Part shown: positions 1,098-5,354 of the stretch, in pieces
Layout of the letters: every line of letters begins with the position of its first letter
Numbering within the stretch: the stretch's first letter is position 1
Source of the DNA: an uncultured Candidatus Udaeobacter sp.
GTDB lineage: Bacteria > Verrucomicrobiota > Verrucomicrobiia > Chthoniobacterales > UBA10450
NCBI GenBank assembly: GCA_955652715.1
Contig: CATPBS010000298.1
Location: forward strand, 1 to 10,258
Length of the DNA: 10,258 nucleotides
Direction: 5' to 3'
The notes under the pieces: generated by a model
The model's input: the letters and a program-made list of their open reading frames with translations, nothing else
Told to the model about the DNA's origin: nothing
Databases searched by the model: none
Translations under genes and position numbers: made by a program

Positions 1098-2840
1098 TTA
1101 GGATCGCGATCCTGGCCGGATGGAGCGGCGTCTCGCCTGGATGGCGACCGCTTGCTCGATCTTTTCGTCGTCGCTGGGATGCATCGGCGGCAATTCTTCC
1201 ATCTGTAGAATATGCACGCCGAGGTCGCCGATTTTGCTCAGACTTAACCCGGCGAATTTCGGGATGGTCTCGCCGATGCGACGAAAGACGTCATCAATGG
1301 ATAAAAGCGAGTCGCCCCCACCGACTGCCTGGAGCAAATCGCGCAAAATCTCCCAATCATCGCGCGCATTTCCTGGCGGGCGCACGGCGCGATTCAATCG
1401 TTGCAACCGGCCTTTGCCGTTCACCATTGAGCCGCGTTTTTCGGCAAAACCGCACGCGGGCAGAACAACGGTCGCTTTTTCGGTCGCCTCGTTGGACAAA
1501 ACATTCATCACGATGAATACAGGGAGCTGCGCGAGCTTTTGGACCGAGATGCCTAAATGCATCGTGTTTTCTTTAAAGACCGCCAGCGCCTTGATTTGAC
1601 CGGATTTCACCGCATCGGCGATTGCAAGCAGGTTCGCGCCCGGTTCAGATGTTGACCCAAGAATGAGTCGCGCGCCGTTGGTATTCGGGTTTCGATCTTC
1701 ACTCAACAAAATATCGTCACCGGGACCCCGCCGCGGAACGATGTCAATCATCTGCGCGCCTAACGACTTCGCCAATTGCAACGTAAGCCAAAGCTCCTCG
1801 TTAGTCATCCGGCCGGACGCGATGATGGCAATCTCAGGGCCAGCAAATTGTCTTAACTGGAGCGCGGCTTGGGCGATCGCGGTTGGCCAATCTGCTGGAA
1901 TCAGATTTCCTTGCGAACGAATCTGTGGCTCTAGCAGACGGTTTTCGGATTCGAGATAATTGAAGTTCAGCCTCCCGTAATCACACATCCAGGACGAATT
2001 CACGTGATCGTTTTCGCGAGGTGTTTGCCGGTAAATCACGTCCTCGCGCGAGGCGATGACAGTGTTGCAGCCGGTCGCGCAACTTGTGCAGATGCTTTTA
2101 GTCTCCTTCAGAAACCAGACGCGCATCTTGAAGCGAAAATCTGTCGACGTGAGCGCGCCGACCGGGCAGATATCGACGGTGTTTAGAGAGTAATTGTTCT
2201 CGAGCAGCTTCCCCGGGTGCGCAGTCAGCACGGTGTAACTGCCGCGATCGACGAACCCGAGAACGTCGTCGTGTGCGATTTCCTGGCAAAAACGAATGCA
2301 CCGCGAGCACAGGATGCAACGCTCGTCATCGAGCGTAACCCGGGGACCAATCAGCACATTTTTCGGTTTTTTGACTTTGTTCTCGAGGAAGCGCGACTTG
2401 GAATCGCCGTAATCGACGCTGAATTCCTGCAAACGGCATTCGCCCGCCTGATCGCAAATCGGGCAATCGAGCGGATGATTGATGAGGAGAAATTCCATCA
2501 CGCCGCGCTGACATTCCTTCACCAGCGGCGAATTAGTGCGAATGCCCATGCCTTCAGCGATATCCTGAGCGCAGGAAATTTGCGGCCGCGGCATCCAGTT
2601 GATGATCGGTTTATCATCGGCGCCGAGCTCCGGCTTGCGATCGGGGCCGAGCCTGGGGAAGCCCATTTCGATCAAACACATCCGGCAATTTCCGGGTGAA
2701 CTAAGCTTCTTGTGATAACAATAGCGCGGCACATAACTCCCGGCCTGCTCGCATGCCTCGATCACGCGGGTGCCCTTGGGGAATTGATGCCAGACGCCAT
2801 CGATCTGGACGTTGAAGATTGGCACGCTCGGCTCAGGCAT
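1098..2840 (-). CDS. nuoG: NADH-quinone oxidoreductase subunit G, compact form
   Basis: This peripheral-arm subunit carries the electron wire of complex I. The 580 residues include the N-terminal ferredoxin-type domain with [2Fe-2S] ligands C41, C52, C55 and C90. Next is the His-Cys [4Fe-4S] site H122, C126, C129, C135 within HPLDCPICDQAGEC. A further [4Fe-4S] site follows (C175, C178, C181, with C225 in the DICPVGAL motif). A C-x2-C-x3-C-x27-C set (C251, C254, C258, C286) matches the off-pathway N7 cluster motif of bacterial NuoG. The remaining roughly 290 residues are a shortened molybdopterin-oxidoreductase-like domain. Total length is well below E. coli NuoG (about 900) and Thermus Nqo3 (about 780). 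No frameshift is evident and the frame ends in TAA. The ATG at 2840 lacks a Shine-Dalgarno site. Upstream, a GxxExxY gene separates it from nuoEF. Confidence 0.96.
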   Translation of the reverse strand: MPEPSVPIFNVQIDGVWHQFPKGTRVIEACEQAGSYVPRYCYHKKLSSPGNCRMCLIEMGFPRLGPDRKPELGADDKPIINWMPRPQISCAQDIAEGMGIRTNSPLVKECQRGVMEFLLINHPLDCPICDQAGECRLQEFSVDYGDSKSRFLENKVKKPKNVLIGPRVTLDDERCILCSRCIRFCQEIAHDDVLGFVDRGSYTVLTAHPGKLLENNYSLNTVDICPVGALTSTDFRFKMRVWFLKETKSICTSCATGCNTVIASREDVIYRQTPRENDHVNSSWMCDYGRLNFNYLESENRLLEPQIRSQGNLIPADWPTAIAQAALQLRQFAGPEIAIIASGRMTNEELWLTLQLAKSLGAQMIDIVPRRGPGDDILLSEDRNPNTNGARLILGSTSEPGANLLAIADAVKSGQIKALAVFKENTMHLGISVQKLAQLPVFIVMNVLSNEATEKATVVLPACGFAEKRGSMVNGKGRLQRLNRAVRPPGNARDDWEILRDLLQAVGGGDSLLSIDDVFRRIGETIPKFAGLSLSKIGDLGVHILQMEELPPMHPSDDEKIEQAVAIQARRRSIRPGSRS

Positions 2841-2866
2841 AGCTAAGGGAAGCAGGAATCATTAAC

Positions 2867-2896
2867 GAATCAGGAAAGCAGGAACGCAGGAAATTC
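2867..2896. repeat. Left arm of inverted repeat flanking the GxxExxY gene
   Basis: On the plus strand this arm is GAATC followed by three octamer units: CAGGAAAG (2871-2878), CAGGAACG (2879-2886) and CAGGAAAT (2887-2894). It matches the reverse complement of the right arm (3296-3327) at 26 of 27 positions counted from its outer GAATC end. Its inner end overlaps the GxxExxY stop codon (2895-2897). A further GCAGGAA lies just outside at 2852-2858. Confidence 0.85.
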
Positions 2897-3329
2897 ATTT
2901 AGAAAACTCGACGGTGCCGTCCGAGCTCGGACGCTCGCGGCAAAAGCGCTTAATGGTTAAAGGAGCCGTCGCGAAGTTAAAAAGCAGCCCGTCGTGGAGA
3001 TTTGTCGCTTTAAGGTAGCTGCGCCCTATTGCGAAATGAATGTCCTCCAATTCGCTGACAGCCTTTAGTTCAACAACAATTTTTCCTTCAACGAGGAAGT
3101 CCAAACGGTGCTCGCCGATCTGGTGATCGCGGTAAAAGAGAGGCACCGGATACTCCCGGATGAACTGAATTCCGCTCAGCGCAAATTCAACTGCAAGTGC
3201 TTCTTCGTATATTGATTCAAGGAAACCGGGCCCTAGTTCGCGATGCACGCGAATCGCAGCGGCGATAATCTGCTGCGTGATTTCGGAATCTCTGAGAATC
3301 TTTCCTGCTTTCCTGCTTTCCTGATTCAT
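2895..3329 (-). CDS. GxxExxY family protein (PD-(D/E)XK nuclease-like fold)
   Basis: The 144-residue protein carries the family's name motif as G35-F-L-E38-S-I-Y41, preceded by a helix with IRVHRELGPG. It also has a nuclease-superfamily-like core with D77 in RLDFLVEG and E87-x-K89 in VVELKAV, then the conserved YLKAT and GLLFNF segments and a final IKRF strand. The cellular function of this family is not established; nuclease activity is only inferred from the fold. The start ATG at 3329 lies 3 bp beyond the nuoEF stop, with no Shine-Dalgarno, so translational coupling is likely. Residues 2-11 (NQESRKAGKI) are encoded by the octamer repeat arm rather than family sequence. Its TGA overlaps the opposite arm. 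It has no known role in complex I, and its position looks like an insertion. Confidence 0.88.
   Translation of the reverse strand: MNQESRKAGKILRDSEITQQIIAAAIRVHRELGPGFLESIYEEALAVEFALSGIQFIREYPVPLFYRDHQIGEHRLDFLVEGKIVVELKAVSELEDIHFAIGRSYLKATNLHDGLLFNFATAPLTIKRFCRERPSSDGTVEFSK
3296..3327. repeat. Right arm of inverted repeat, three perfect octamers
   Basis: On the plus strand the unit CTTTCCTG repeats three times without error (3300-3323), flanked by GAATC (3296-3300) and GATTC (3323-3327). It is the inverted partner of 2867-2896. It encodes the N-terminal residues of the GxxExxY protein, directly after its ATG. Confidence 0.88.
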
Positions 3330-3332
3330 ATT

Positions 3333-5354
3333 CTAGATCGTCCCTTTCGCACCCGCTTTTTCCCACCCCGGATCGTGCGCCATGGGGACAGTGGGAATCG
3401 ACTCCTCCTCAATCAGCTCTTCCGACGTGTATTCAGGCGGAAGGGGTGGGGGAACCGGTTTCCGGGCGCGGGCCGCAAATTCCTCAGGAAATTTTTGGAC
3501 AAAACTTTGCGTCGGCCACGGGCATTCTTCGCCAAATGCGCAAATGGTACGCCCGGCGATGTTGTCGCCAATGGTTTTGAGCGTTTTCGGGTCTTCCACA
3601 ACTCCGCCGCCACGCAACATGCGGTCGGTGATTTTCTTCATCCAAAGCGAGCCTTCCCGGCAGGGTGTACATTGGCCGCAGCTCTCGTGCGCGTAGAACT
3701 CGTTGATATTGTTTAATACCCAGACCACGTCCCGGGAATCGTCCAACACGATCACGCCGCCGGAACCGGCCATCGAACCTGCCGCAGTCAGTGAGTCAAA
3801 GTCCATTGGGATTTCGTCGATCGACATCTCCCGCTCAATTGTCGATCCGTCGGCTTGTCTTTGCTTGAGCTTAAATCGTTCATCGGCGCGCAAAACTTTC
3901 GCGGAGCTTCCACCAGGGATGACCGCCTTTAGTTTTCGGCCAGGTCTTAACCCGCCGGCCATTTCGTAGATCAACTGGCCCATCGTTACCGCGCCGACTT
4001 CGATTTCTAAGTAGCCCGGTCGCTGAACGTCACCGCTTACACAGACAATGCGCGTTCCCGTGTTGTTAGGTCGGCCAAGACGCGAATATTCCGTGCCGCC
4101 CATCGCAATGATGTGTTTTATGTGGCAGAGCGTTTCGACGTTGTTGACGATGGTTGGGCACATGTAGAGGCCGAGCACTGCTGGAAAGTAAGGTGGCTTG
4201 ATTCGAGGATAACCGCGCTTCCCTTCCAGCGATTCGATGAGGCCCGTTTCTTCTCCGCAAATGTAAGCGCCCGCGCCCCGATGAATGTAAATCTCTGCGT
4301 CGAATCCGGAGCCGAGAATGTTTTTCCCAAGGAAATTGCGTGCGCGCGCTTCTTCGATTGCGCGTTCGAGAATCTTCGCGCCTTCCGGGAATTCGCCTCG
4401 TATGTAGATGTAAGCCGTGCGCGCGTTGAGCGCGTAACACGAGATCAGAATTCCCTCAAGTAATTGATGTGGATCGCGGTGGATGATGTAACGATCCTTG
4501 AATGTGCCCGGCTCCGATTCGTCTGCGTTGCAGATCAGATAGACGGGCCGTTTTTCGTCGGGTTTAATGAAGCTCCATTTCAAGCCGCAGGAGAACCCGG
4601 CCCCACCGCGGCCGCGCAGGCCGGAGTTTTTGACTTTGTTGATGATGTCACTGCGCGACATGGTTAGCGCTTGCTTCAATTGCTCGTAACCGCCATCGCG
4701 CAGGTAACAGTCGATATCCGTTGTCCAATCTGAGCGTCCGATATTTTTGAAAATTAATCGATGTTCGAGAGGGTGGGGCGGTGGCCAAGGAGCGGCGGTC
4801 TCCAGTCCGCCGTTCCCCGGTGGGCGGTCTGGAGGCCGCCCTTCCTTGATCAGGCTGGCCGCAGAATTCGGATCGACGTTCTCGTGTAGTTCCTCGCCAA
4901 TCATACACACCGGCGCGGTACCGCAGCTTGCCAGGCATTCGACAAATTCGACACTGTAATTACCGTCGGCGCTGACCGTAATGGGATTGTGCATTCCCTC
5001 GCCGTCAGGCGGGCGTTGGATACCAAAAGTCGCGCACAATTTTTCCATCAGCTCAAAACCGCCGGCCATCGCGCAACTAAGTGTGCGGCAGACGCGGATG
5101 TGGGTTTTGCCCGGCGGCTGCTGTCGAAACATTGGATAGAAGGTGACCAGCTCGAGAATATTGATCGGTTGCAAGCCGAGCTTTTCCGCGATCCACATTA
5201 CGGCCTCGTCGCTGATGAATCCGAAGTGTTCCTGCCAAAGATGCAACAGCGGCATGGCCGCGCTTCTTCGGTGATCGCTCGGATAGCGCGCGATCGCCTC
5301 ATCCATTTTGCGCTCCAGCTCGGCGGGAATGCGTATGCTCGTCGAGTCTGTCAC
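3333..5354 (-). CDS. nuoEF: NADH-quinone oxidoreductase subunits E and F fused
   Basis: This single 673-residue frame combines the NADH dehydrogenase tip of complex I. Residues 1 to about 169 are NuoE, with [2Fe-2S] ligands C89, C94, C140 and C144. Residues from about 198 are NuoF. It has the FMN-binding GRGGAGFSCGLKW (248-260), the NADH-site NADESEPGTFKDR (276-288), GAGAYICGEETGLIESLEGKRG (360-381), and [4Fe-4S] ligands C559, C562, C565 and C605. The proline- and glycine-rich linker (170-197) is largely encoded by a hairpin-forming DNA repeat (4787-4847). A proline-rich then acidic tail of about 40 residues (630-673) extends past the usual NuoF end. The start is GTG at 5354, chosen because NuoE similarity begins just after it; the next ATG (M17) would cut into the NuoE N-terminus. 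No Shine-Dalgarno is obvious. It begins 26 bp after the BamE-like gene. Confidence 0.95.
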   Translation of the reverse strand: MTDSTSIRIPAELERKMDEAIARYPSDHRRSAAMPLLHLWQEHFGFISDEAVMWIAEKLGLQPINILELVTFYPMFRQQPPGKTHIRVCRTLSCAMAGGFELMEKLCATFGIQRPPDGEGMHNPITVSADGNYSVEFVECLASCGTAPVCMIGEELHENVDPNSAASLIKEGRPPDRPPGNGGLETAAPWPPPHPLEHRLIFKNIGRSDWTTDIDCYLRDGGYEQLKQALTMSRSDIINKVKNSGLRGRGGAGFSCGLKWSFIKPDEKRPVYLICNADESEPGTFKDRYIIHRDPHQLLEGILISCYALNARTAYIYIRGEFPEGAKILERAIEEARARNFLGKNILGSGFDAEIYIHRGAGAYICGEETGLIESLEGKRGYPRIKPPYFPAVLGLYMCPTIVNNVETLCHIKHIIAMGGTEYSRLGRPNNTGTRIVCVSGDVQRPGYLEIEVGAVTMGQLIYEMAGGLRPGRKLKAVIPGGSSAKVLRADERFKLKQRQADGSTIEREMSIDEIPMDFDSLTAAGSMAGSGGVIVLDDSRDVVWVLNNINEFYAHESCGQCTPCREGSLWMKKITDRMLRGGGVVEDPKTLKTIGDNIAGRTICAFGEECPWPTQSFVQKFPEEFAARARKPVPPPLPPEYTSEELIEEESIPTVPMAHDPGWEKAGAKGTI
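4787..4847. repeat. In-frame palindromic repeat at the NuoE/NuoF junction
   Basis: Two 25-bp arms (4787-4811 and 4823-4847) are reverse complements at 21 of 25 positions around an 11-bp loop. Each arm contains an 18-bp GC-rich core (GGCGGTCTCCAGTCCGCC at 4794-4811 and GGCGGTCTGGAGGCCGCC at 4823-4840) that is itself nearly palindromic. It would fold into a strong hairpin in DNA or mRNA. It encodes residues about 170-190 of the fused protein, exactly between the two subunits. I believe similar GGCGGTCT...CCGCC repeats occur dispersed in related genomes, but this cannot be checked here. Confidence 0.75.

Follow-up and report, generated by a model that had tools for sequence, protein, structure and literature searches.

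This locus raises the question of what a small GxxExxY gene, bracketed by inverted arrays of octamers, is doing inside a nuo operon. The window, by which we mean the whole stretch of DNA that was analysed, is contig C298 (10,258 nt) and comes from a draft assembly, 69% complete, that totals 1.98 Mb over 369 contigs. The GxxExxY gene (2895..3329, minus strand, 144 aa) lies between a NuoE-NuoF reading frame (3333..5354, minus strand, stop codon 3333-3335) and NuoG (1098..2840, minus strand, start codon 2838-2840). The NuoF neighbour scored 553.9 bits with the best NuoF model, slightly below that model's own cut-off, and 482.1 bits with the NuoF model PRK13596, above cut-off; the NuoG neighbour scored 454.6 bits with the best NuoG model, again slightly below that model's own cut-off. 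The top inverted repeat of the whole window is the pair of arms around the gene, 27 nt each, 26/27 (96%) complementary and 407 nt apart, and between them lies the GxxExxY gene only. Read in gene sense, the 5' arm (3301..3327) consists of three CAGGAAAG octamers, touches the start codon and is translated as the N-terminus of the protein (MNQESRKAGKI). The 3' arm (2867..2893; neither arm is assigned a strand) is its inverted copy, made of three CAGGAA-type octamers, and since a single base separates its end from the stop codon (2895-2897) it abuts that codon and does not overlap it. These results confirmed what the sequence-only reading had described, inverted arms of three CAGGAAAG-type units around a GxxExxY gene in the nuo operon, with NuoE/NuoF and NuoG as neighbours. 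The limits it had given to the arms, 2867-2896 and 3296-3327, proved a few bases too wide, and of the two overlaps between arms and gene that it had proposed, the one at the N-terminus held and the one at the stop codon did not.

A further short stretch, 2843..2859 (CTAAGGGAAGCAGGAAT, no strand assigned), lies next to the nuoG start and resembles the TCTRAGGAAAG arms present in two relatives, G024 and G008. It could be a left-over right arm of another subtype, and this likeness, judged without a statistical test, suggests that an earlier element once occupied the nuoF-nuoG junction of the window.

In profile searches, the window protein matched TIGR04256 (131.6 bits, cut-off 35) and PF13366 (125.6 bits, cut-off 22), and nothing but nuclease families matched it in NCBIfam and Pfam. 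Its PF13366 match, its E..D..(E/D)xK residues (E38, D77, E87 and K89) and its fold place it in the PD-(D/E)XK nuclease superfamily, as a predicted nuclease with a minimal domain. E38, D77 and K89 are invariant, and E87 nearly so, in alignments of 12 and 46 sequences. The median dN/dS at the nuo site was 0.079 (22 of 105 pairs, those with pS<0.7), so that the gene is under strong purifying selection there. The window arms enclose the GxxExxY gene only, and the locus lacks the transposase of a known family that an insertion sequence encodes; neither is the gene a RAYT tyrosine transposase, its match being PF13366 only. A PDB sequence search with the protein gave no match at E<=1, and PHROGs gave a weak match only (E 0.044). 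A known anti-phage defence gene was rejected (0 PADLOC families at E<=1), as were carriage by phages (no GxxExxY match among 50,697 phage records) and by plasmids (matches in just 8 of 72,556 plasmid records, all below 60% identity). Note that residues 100-106 of the window protein read AIGRSYL, whereas most relatives have AQxxNYL; the nuo-type protein is without the Q of that helix. From the window query, 7,109 related protein clusters were reached, and a close one (P0071) bears the name Verrucomicrobia bacterium.

Are other GxxExxY genes bracketed in the same way? TIGR04256 matches were found in 32 of 39 genomes (its own, same genus and same order), with 0 to 12 per genome, many of them fragmentary or stop-interrupted. 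Our genus set comprised 101 loci from 23 genomes, with 8 weak or fragmentary loci left out and 3 of the 101 having flanks that were too short, and the 350 nt upstream of each gene were aligned with the reverse complement of the 350 nt downstream; 130-nt flanks were used later. With 350-nt flanks, the inverted score was at least 16 in 55 of 98 loci, compared to 10 of 98 for the direct alignment. With 130-nt flanks, inverted arms scoring at least 13 were present in 71% of 97 loci and at none of 485 positions chosen at random within those loci. A wide scan, with one genome per species, gave at least 558 confirmed relatives, of which the best 80 were kept; this wide set holds the loci most like the query and is not a random sample. 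These best 80 of at least 558 come from Planctomycetota, Bacteroidota, Cyanobacteria, Chloroflexi, Geothrix, Treponema, Patescibacteria, Nitrospinota, Wallbacteria and others. Among them, 62 of the 78 loci with enough flank reached 13, compared to 22 of 78 for the direct alignment and 5% in the cross-locus control, and inverted arms scoring at least 13 were found in 80% of 76 loci versus 1.1% of 380 random positions. In the genus, 29% of loci stayed below this threshold, as did 20% of those tested from the best 80 of the wide scan. The unit of gene plus arms is real, specific and family-wide, and it is found across phyla. The earlier proposal that gene and arms form one unit was borne out, since other GxxExxY genes are bracketed too and the window arms enclose nothing else.

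The arms follow a common rule of spacing. Counting only arms of at least 22 nt and a score of at least 16, the period was 8-10 nt in 114 of 128 arms (65/72 in the genus, and 49/56 in the wide set, the best 80 of at least 558); it was 11 in nine of the remaining arms, 12-13 in five, and 5-7 in none of the 128. In shuffled arms, the periods were scattered over 5-13. Examples of such arms are GAATCAGGAAAGCAGGAAAGCAGGAAA, TTAACCACGAATGGACACGAATGAACACGAAT, CCCGCGAATCACGCGAATTAACGCGAAT and CCGCAGATTTCGCAGATTTACGCAGATT. We then compared arm similarity with protein similarity, restricting the comparison to pairs of loci that differ in both site and genome and have an arm score of at least 13. In the genus the two tracked each other (r=0.51, 65 loci, permutation maximum 0.133), and they did so in the wide set, again the best 80 of at least 558 (r=0.286, 57 loci, permutation maximum 0.169). 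At five of six sites, the mean match between the two arms of a locus was higher than the match to the arms that other genomes have there, and equal in one, a comparison made without a statistical test. Judged from these alignments, arm sequence and spacing are tied to protein family and lineage, and this matched arm code strongly suggests that the GxxExxY nuclease recognises its own arms.

The 101 genus loci fell into 32 flank clusters, of which s05 and s15 are one site; the site counts are approximate because s02 and s03 each contain two protein clades. More than one flank cluster was occupied by 8 of the 12 protein clusters (>=60%, single linkage, at least two loci each). At s05/s15 the gene is oriented one way in G020 and G004, and the opposite way in G021, G010, G000 and G008. 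The site at G021:C168 (s08) carries a GxxExxY gene in G000 as well and is empty in ten relatives, which were selected because a single BLAST match ran across the junction; their aligned flank ends are -1 to 37 nt apart. No array is present at these empty s08 sites, and no target-site duplication stands out in 137 loci (at least 4 nt in 11 of 137, versus 13% in the cross control); a duplication may have been lost, as the insertions look old. These two results lend no support to the suggestion, made from the window alone, that octamer repeats serve as landing sites. Elsewhere, the place of the gene is taken in some relatives by a half array or by a small inverted element of another kind. Two half arrays at an intergenic site (L350 and L351), each a single arm TTAACCACGAATGGACACGAAT, are perhaps end products of decay.

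The repeats are also present without the gene. The source genome contains 20 occurrences of CAGGAAAGCAGGAA with at most one mismatch, five of them in the window's own arms, versus 0 for the reversed control, so the window repeat is not a product of chance. Several of the copies outside the window belong to gene-less inverted pairs with arms some 20-110 nt apart (C99 near 5186, C111 near 2363, C296 near 1709, C11 near 5093 and C202 near 4352). At a nuoF-nuoG junction on contig C235 of the same genome (G000), the two ends of an AATCTGGAAACCAGGAA-type element are retained, its left arm with the gene's first codons and its right tip, which reads as a clear case of an internal deletion derivative of a GxxExxY element. 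A short element at the nuo junction of G002 was also considered as a gene deletion derivative and was unconvincing, as 19 of 500 shuffles were as good in the best case. Note that G000:C235:1-160 (L059) and G020:C340 (L129) each add a second nuoF-nuoG junction to their draft genome, which may represent a duplicate operon or mixed strains.

For the CAGGAA-type arrays, 15 genomes with the gene at nuo were compared to 15 without it, five of unknown state being left out. The median density of CAGGAANNCAGGAA was 6.0 per Mb with the CAGGAA-type gene at nuo versus 1.25 without it (p=2.7e-4), and the excess persisted after subtracting 4 per gene-bearing genome (p=0.0095). In five sister pairs, the only control for phylogeny, the raw CAGGAANNCAGGAA count was higher with the gene in 5/5, and the count per Mb in 4/5. 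G046 has 29 arrays and no CAGGAA-type gene at nuo; draft genomes may hide a gene. Of 35 genomes, 34 contain ACCACGAATNNACACGAAT with at most one mismatch, and the control gave 0 matches. For arrays of the ACCACGAAT arm type, the excess with the gene was weak (p=0.10; 7 gene-bearing genomes, 25 genomes), reaching p=0.027 when a gene fragment was taken as the eighth gene-bearing genome. These counts only suggest that gene-less copies are mobilised in trans. The sequence-only reading had held that a genome-wide repeat with no association with GxxExxY genes would speak against it. Half of this was found, since the repeat does occur genome-wide without the gene, but it is very strongly associated with GxxExxY genes.

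When 363,355 nt of G007 were scanned without bias, 20 inverted repeats of all kinds turned up, versus 2 in shuffled sequence; among the 20 are GxxExxY loci, one locus of a four-helix-bundle gene, octamer-like pairs that enclose no gene, and families unrelated to these. In G007 there is also an inverted element of about 150 nt with GGTAGCGCACGCGTCTCGCGTG-like arms, present in two copies less than 20 kb apart (L232:4180-4329 and L232:18267-18417). Another small inverted family of the same genus, of AGGTAGGGGCGATT type and ending in AATCGCCCCTACC, is intergenic (L359, L360 and L226:3068-3694).

What is present at the nuoF-nuoG junction in the relatives? We located nuoF in 31 of the 35 genomes of the genus and took 30 loci; 29 junctions were read, and that of G015 was seen in L113. 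The GxxExxY gene was present at 15 of these 30 junctions, three were empty (G044, G006 and G043), and 12 had other elements or remnants. Empty junctions in relatives, proposed earlier as a check, exist both here and at the G021:C168 site. The insertion into the nuo operon is likewise real, but it is not specific to the source genome, as half of the relatives have the gene there. Nine of the gene-bearing junctions have CAGGAAAG-like arms, with TCTRAGGAAAG tips in G024 and G008, and six have AATCTGG arms. Short hexamer inverted elements of CTCGTGCTCATGCTC type occupy seven junctions (L159, L166, L167, L168, L173, L181 and L182), and in three (L165, L175 and L185) a hexamer array is followed by a frame that starts like a four-helix-bundle protein; the L175 frame is TIGR02436 (72.8 bits), and those of L165 and L185 look broken. 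The last two junctions have a short CAGGAAAG element and a remnant, respectively.

Genes of the TIGR02436 (four helix bundle) family were present in 32 of 39 genomes. Taking the best one or so of each genome (30 loci, L368-L397), inverted arms scoring at least 13 were found at 24 of 30 loci versus 0 of 150 random positions, with a period of 7 nt in 22 of 24 usable arms. One further TIGR02436 locus, L234:14384-14874, is bracketed by inverted arrays. GxxExxY and TIGR02436 are unrelated proteins that share the outline of their loci and differ in unit length, with periods of 8-10 nt in the one and 7 nt in the other. The passages of PMC4990558 on the 23S rRNA intervening sequence (IVS) of Coxiella burnetii describe an element of 428 nt whose ends form a 28-bp stem and which contains three tandem heptamers and a small S23 ORF; its tandem repeats adjoin the start codon, and it is termed there a selfish element. 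As described in those passages, the Coxiella IVS fits the layout of the TIGR02436 family. The GxxExxY element is like it in having about 430 nt, terminal inverted repeats, short tandem repeats and one small ORF (PMC4990558). However, the IVS encodes an S23 four-helix bundle, has heptamers, lies in rRNA and is removed by RNase III, according to the same passages, whereas GxxExxY is a predicted nuclease with units of 8-10 nt. With a different protein, and located between nuoF and nuoG, the window element is not a 23S rRNA IVS.

Of the explanations competing with a dispersed element that recognises its own arms, one akin to homing survives best, and we consider it unlikely. It proposes that the nuclease cuts the empty nuoF-nuoG junction, that repair copies the element in, and that the same lineage re-enters other hosts. 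Free-standing homing endonucleases are small nuclease genes at a fixed intergenic site, with empty alleles, and the GxxExxY locus is like them as a small nuclease-family gene at an intergenic site with empty alleles. In support of homing, the nuo clade is confined to the nuo junction (12/12 loci of its >=60% cluster) and is patchy on the nuoF tree, where sister genomes differ in nuo state: G010/G040 (100), G039/G044 (97), G046/G015 (90) and G021/G041 (82). Moreover, the GxxExxY data reject the nuoF topology (14 loci, without G011, which was left out for its poor nuoF alignment; dlnL 229, pAU 2e-4), with dlnL 120 for 10 complete inserts, and they reject the nuoG topology (dlnL 154; 11 loci, G011 included). 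The control, nuoG against nuoF, gave a difference of dlnL 24-25 only and was itself nominally rejected. The insert data of site s01 also conflict with the host tree (dlnL 67-70), and the nuo flanks follow the host tree up to the junction in a run that included G011, whose nuoF reading is faulty. A long co-conversion tract around the nuo insert was looked for in that same run, with its faulty G011 reading, and none was found.

Within arm subtypes, however, this conflict is not seen. The insert data did not reject the host topology for the GAATCAGG subtype (p=0.13 with 7 loci, 0.31 with 6), and insert and host had the same topology in the five loci of the AATCTGG subtype; these within-subtype tests have low power, the gene being short and support low. 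When the GAATCAGG and TCTRAGG loci were combined (8 loci), the host topology was rejected (dlnL 31, p=9e-4). The conflict therefore lies between subtypes, and several old elements side by side, followed by differential loss, could explain the nuo pattern as well as re-entry. This fits the possible left-over arm at 2843-2859, by which the window may retain the arm of a second subtype. For this reason, repeated lateral entry into the nuo site was dropped as a proven event. Sites s03 and s04 had no tree conflict (5 loci each), and since synonymous sites at the nuo site are mostly near saturation, no recent movement is seen there. Homing also leaves the arms unexplained, and we know of no homing endonuclease with arms of the GxxExxY type.

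It is improbable that the repeats are operators, through which a domesticated host regulator or repair nuclease would autoregulate from around its own gene. The strong purifying selection, the retention at shared sites and the 5' arm touching the start codon would be expected of such a gene, but arms in inverted order flank the gene on either side, copies without a gene lie dispersed in the genomes, and the number of matches per genome varies from 0 to 12, many of them broken. Least probable of all is an RNA-level element like the 23S IVS, with transcript arms that pair and are cut by RNase III so that the insert is tolerated in operons: its outline is that of the Coxiella IVS as PMC4990558 describes it, but the arm mismatches have no G-U bias (88 G.U-compatible versus 102 A.C-type in the genus, and 71 versus 82 in the best 80 of at least 558 wide-set loci), on which ground an RNA stem kept for pairing was rejected as the main force, the window element is located in a protein-coding operon, and arm identity goes with protein lineage, something not expected from pairing alone.

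The reading we favour, and hold to be rather probable, is that the window contains one copy of a single-gene element that is old, moves slowly and encodes a nuclease that recognises the element's own arms. On evolutionary grounds, its status as a dispersed selfish element is well supported; arm recognition and movement we infer. The single-gene element would be a very widespread one, made of a minimal PD-(D/E)XK nuclease gene and inverted arms, each of about three direct repeats spaced 8-10 nt. The GxxExxY protein would bind the repeated units of its own arms and cut there, and the armed segment, with its gene or as a gene-less derivative mobilised in trans, would now and then be copied into, or moved to, a different intergenic junction without duplicating the target. 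Such movement would be slow on the time scale of the genus, where most copies look old and, in part at least through internal deletion, would decay to short inverted repeats. The window copy would be an old insertion in the nuoF-nuoG junction.

REPs are palindromes, and the GxxExxY arms are arrays of three direct repeats. In other respects, the element is like the REPIN/RAYT system as presented in PMC3116915, with short inverted doublets that are scattered, intergenic and linked to a type of gene proposed as their spreader; unlike it, GxxExxY belongs to a PD-(D/E)XK family, and RAYTs are tyrosine transposases (PMC3116915). TAACTGA heptamer arrays were reported from Beggiatoaceae, cyanobacteria and Bacteroidetes, mostly intergenic, and their carriage by mobile elements was considered in the sections of PMC4679880 that treat them. 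Unlike the GxxExxY arms, these arrays include only one inverted set among the 170 tabulated in the genome (PMC4679880), and the words four helix, S23, intervening and nuclease are absent from the main text of that paper. Our search of the literature covered open-access full texts. No description of a GxxExxY-plus-arms element was found there, the four arm motifs and two repeat-encoded peptides are absent from these texts, and GxxExxY is mentioned in passing only in the passages that name it.

More tentatively, GxxExxY proteins may be the nucleases that serve a class of mobile elements, so far unrecognised and present in many phyla, in which each lineage would read its own arm code of about three units of 8-10 nt and mobilise both the gene and its gene-less miniatures; TIGR02436 would form a parallel 7-nt system, of which the 23S rRNA IVS is one special case. 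GxxExxY is a large family of small genes without an assigned function, and its own arms offer a concrete candidate substrate for the nuclease. The element reading accounts for the repeat-encoded N-terminus and for part of the short intergenic repeats of the genus. As the arm sequence changes with the protein, the family would also provide a natural set of matched protein-DNA pairs. If this proposal is true, thousands of GxxExxY or four helix bundle genes would be the coding parts of two similar-looking classes of selfish elements.
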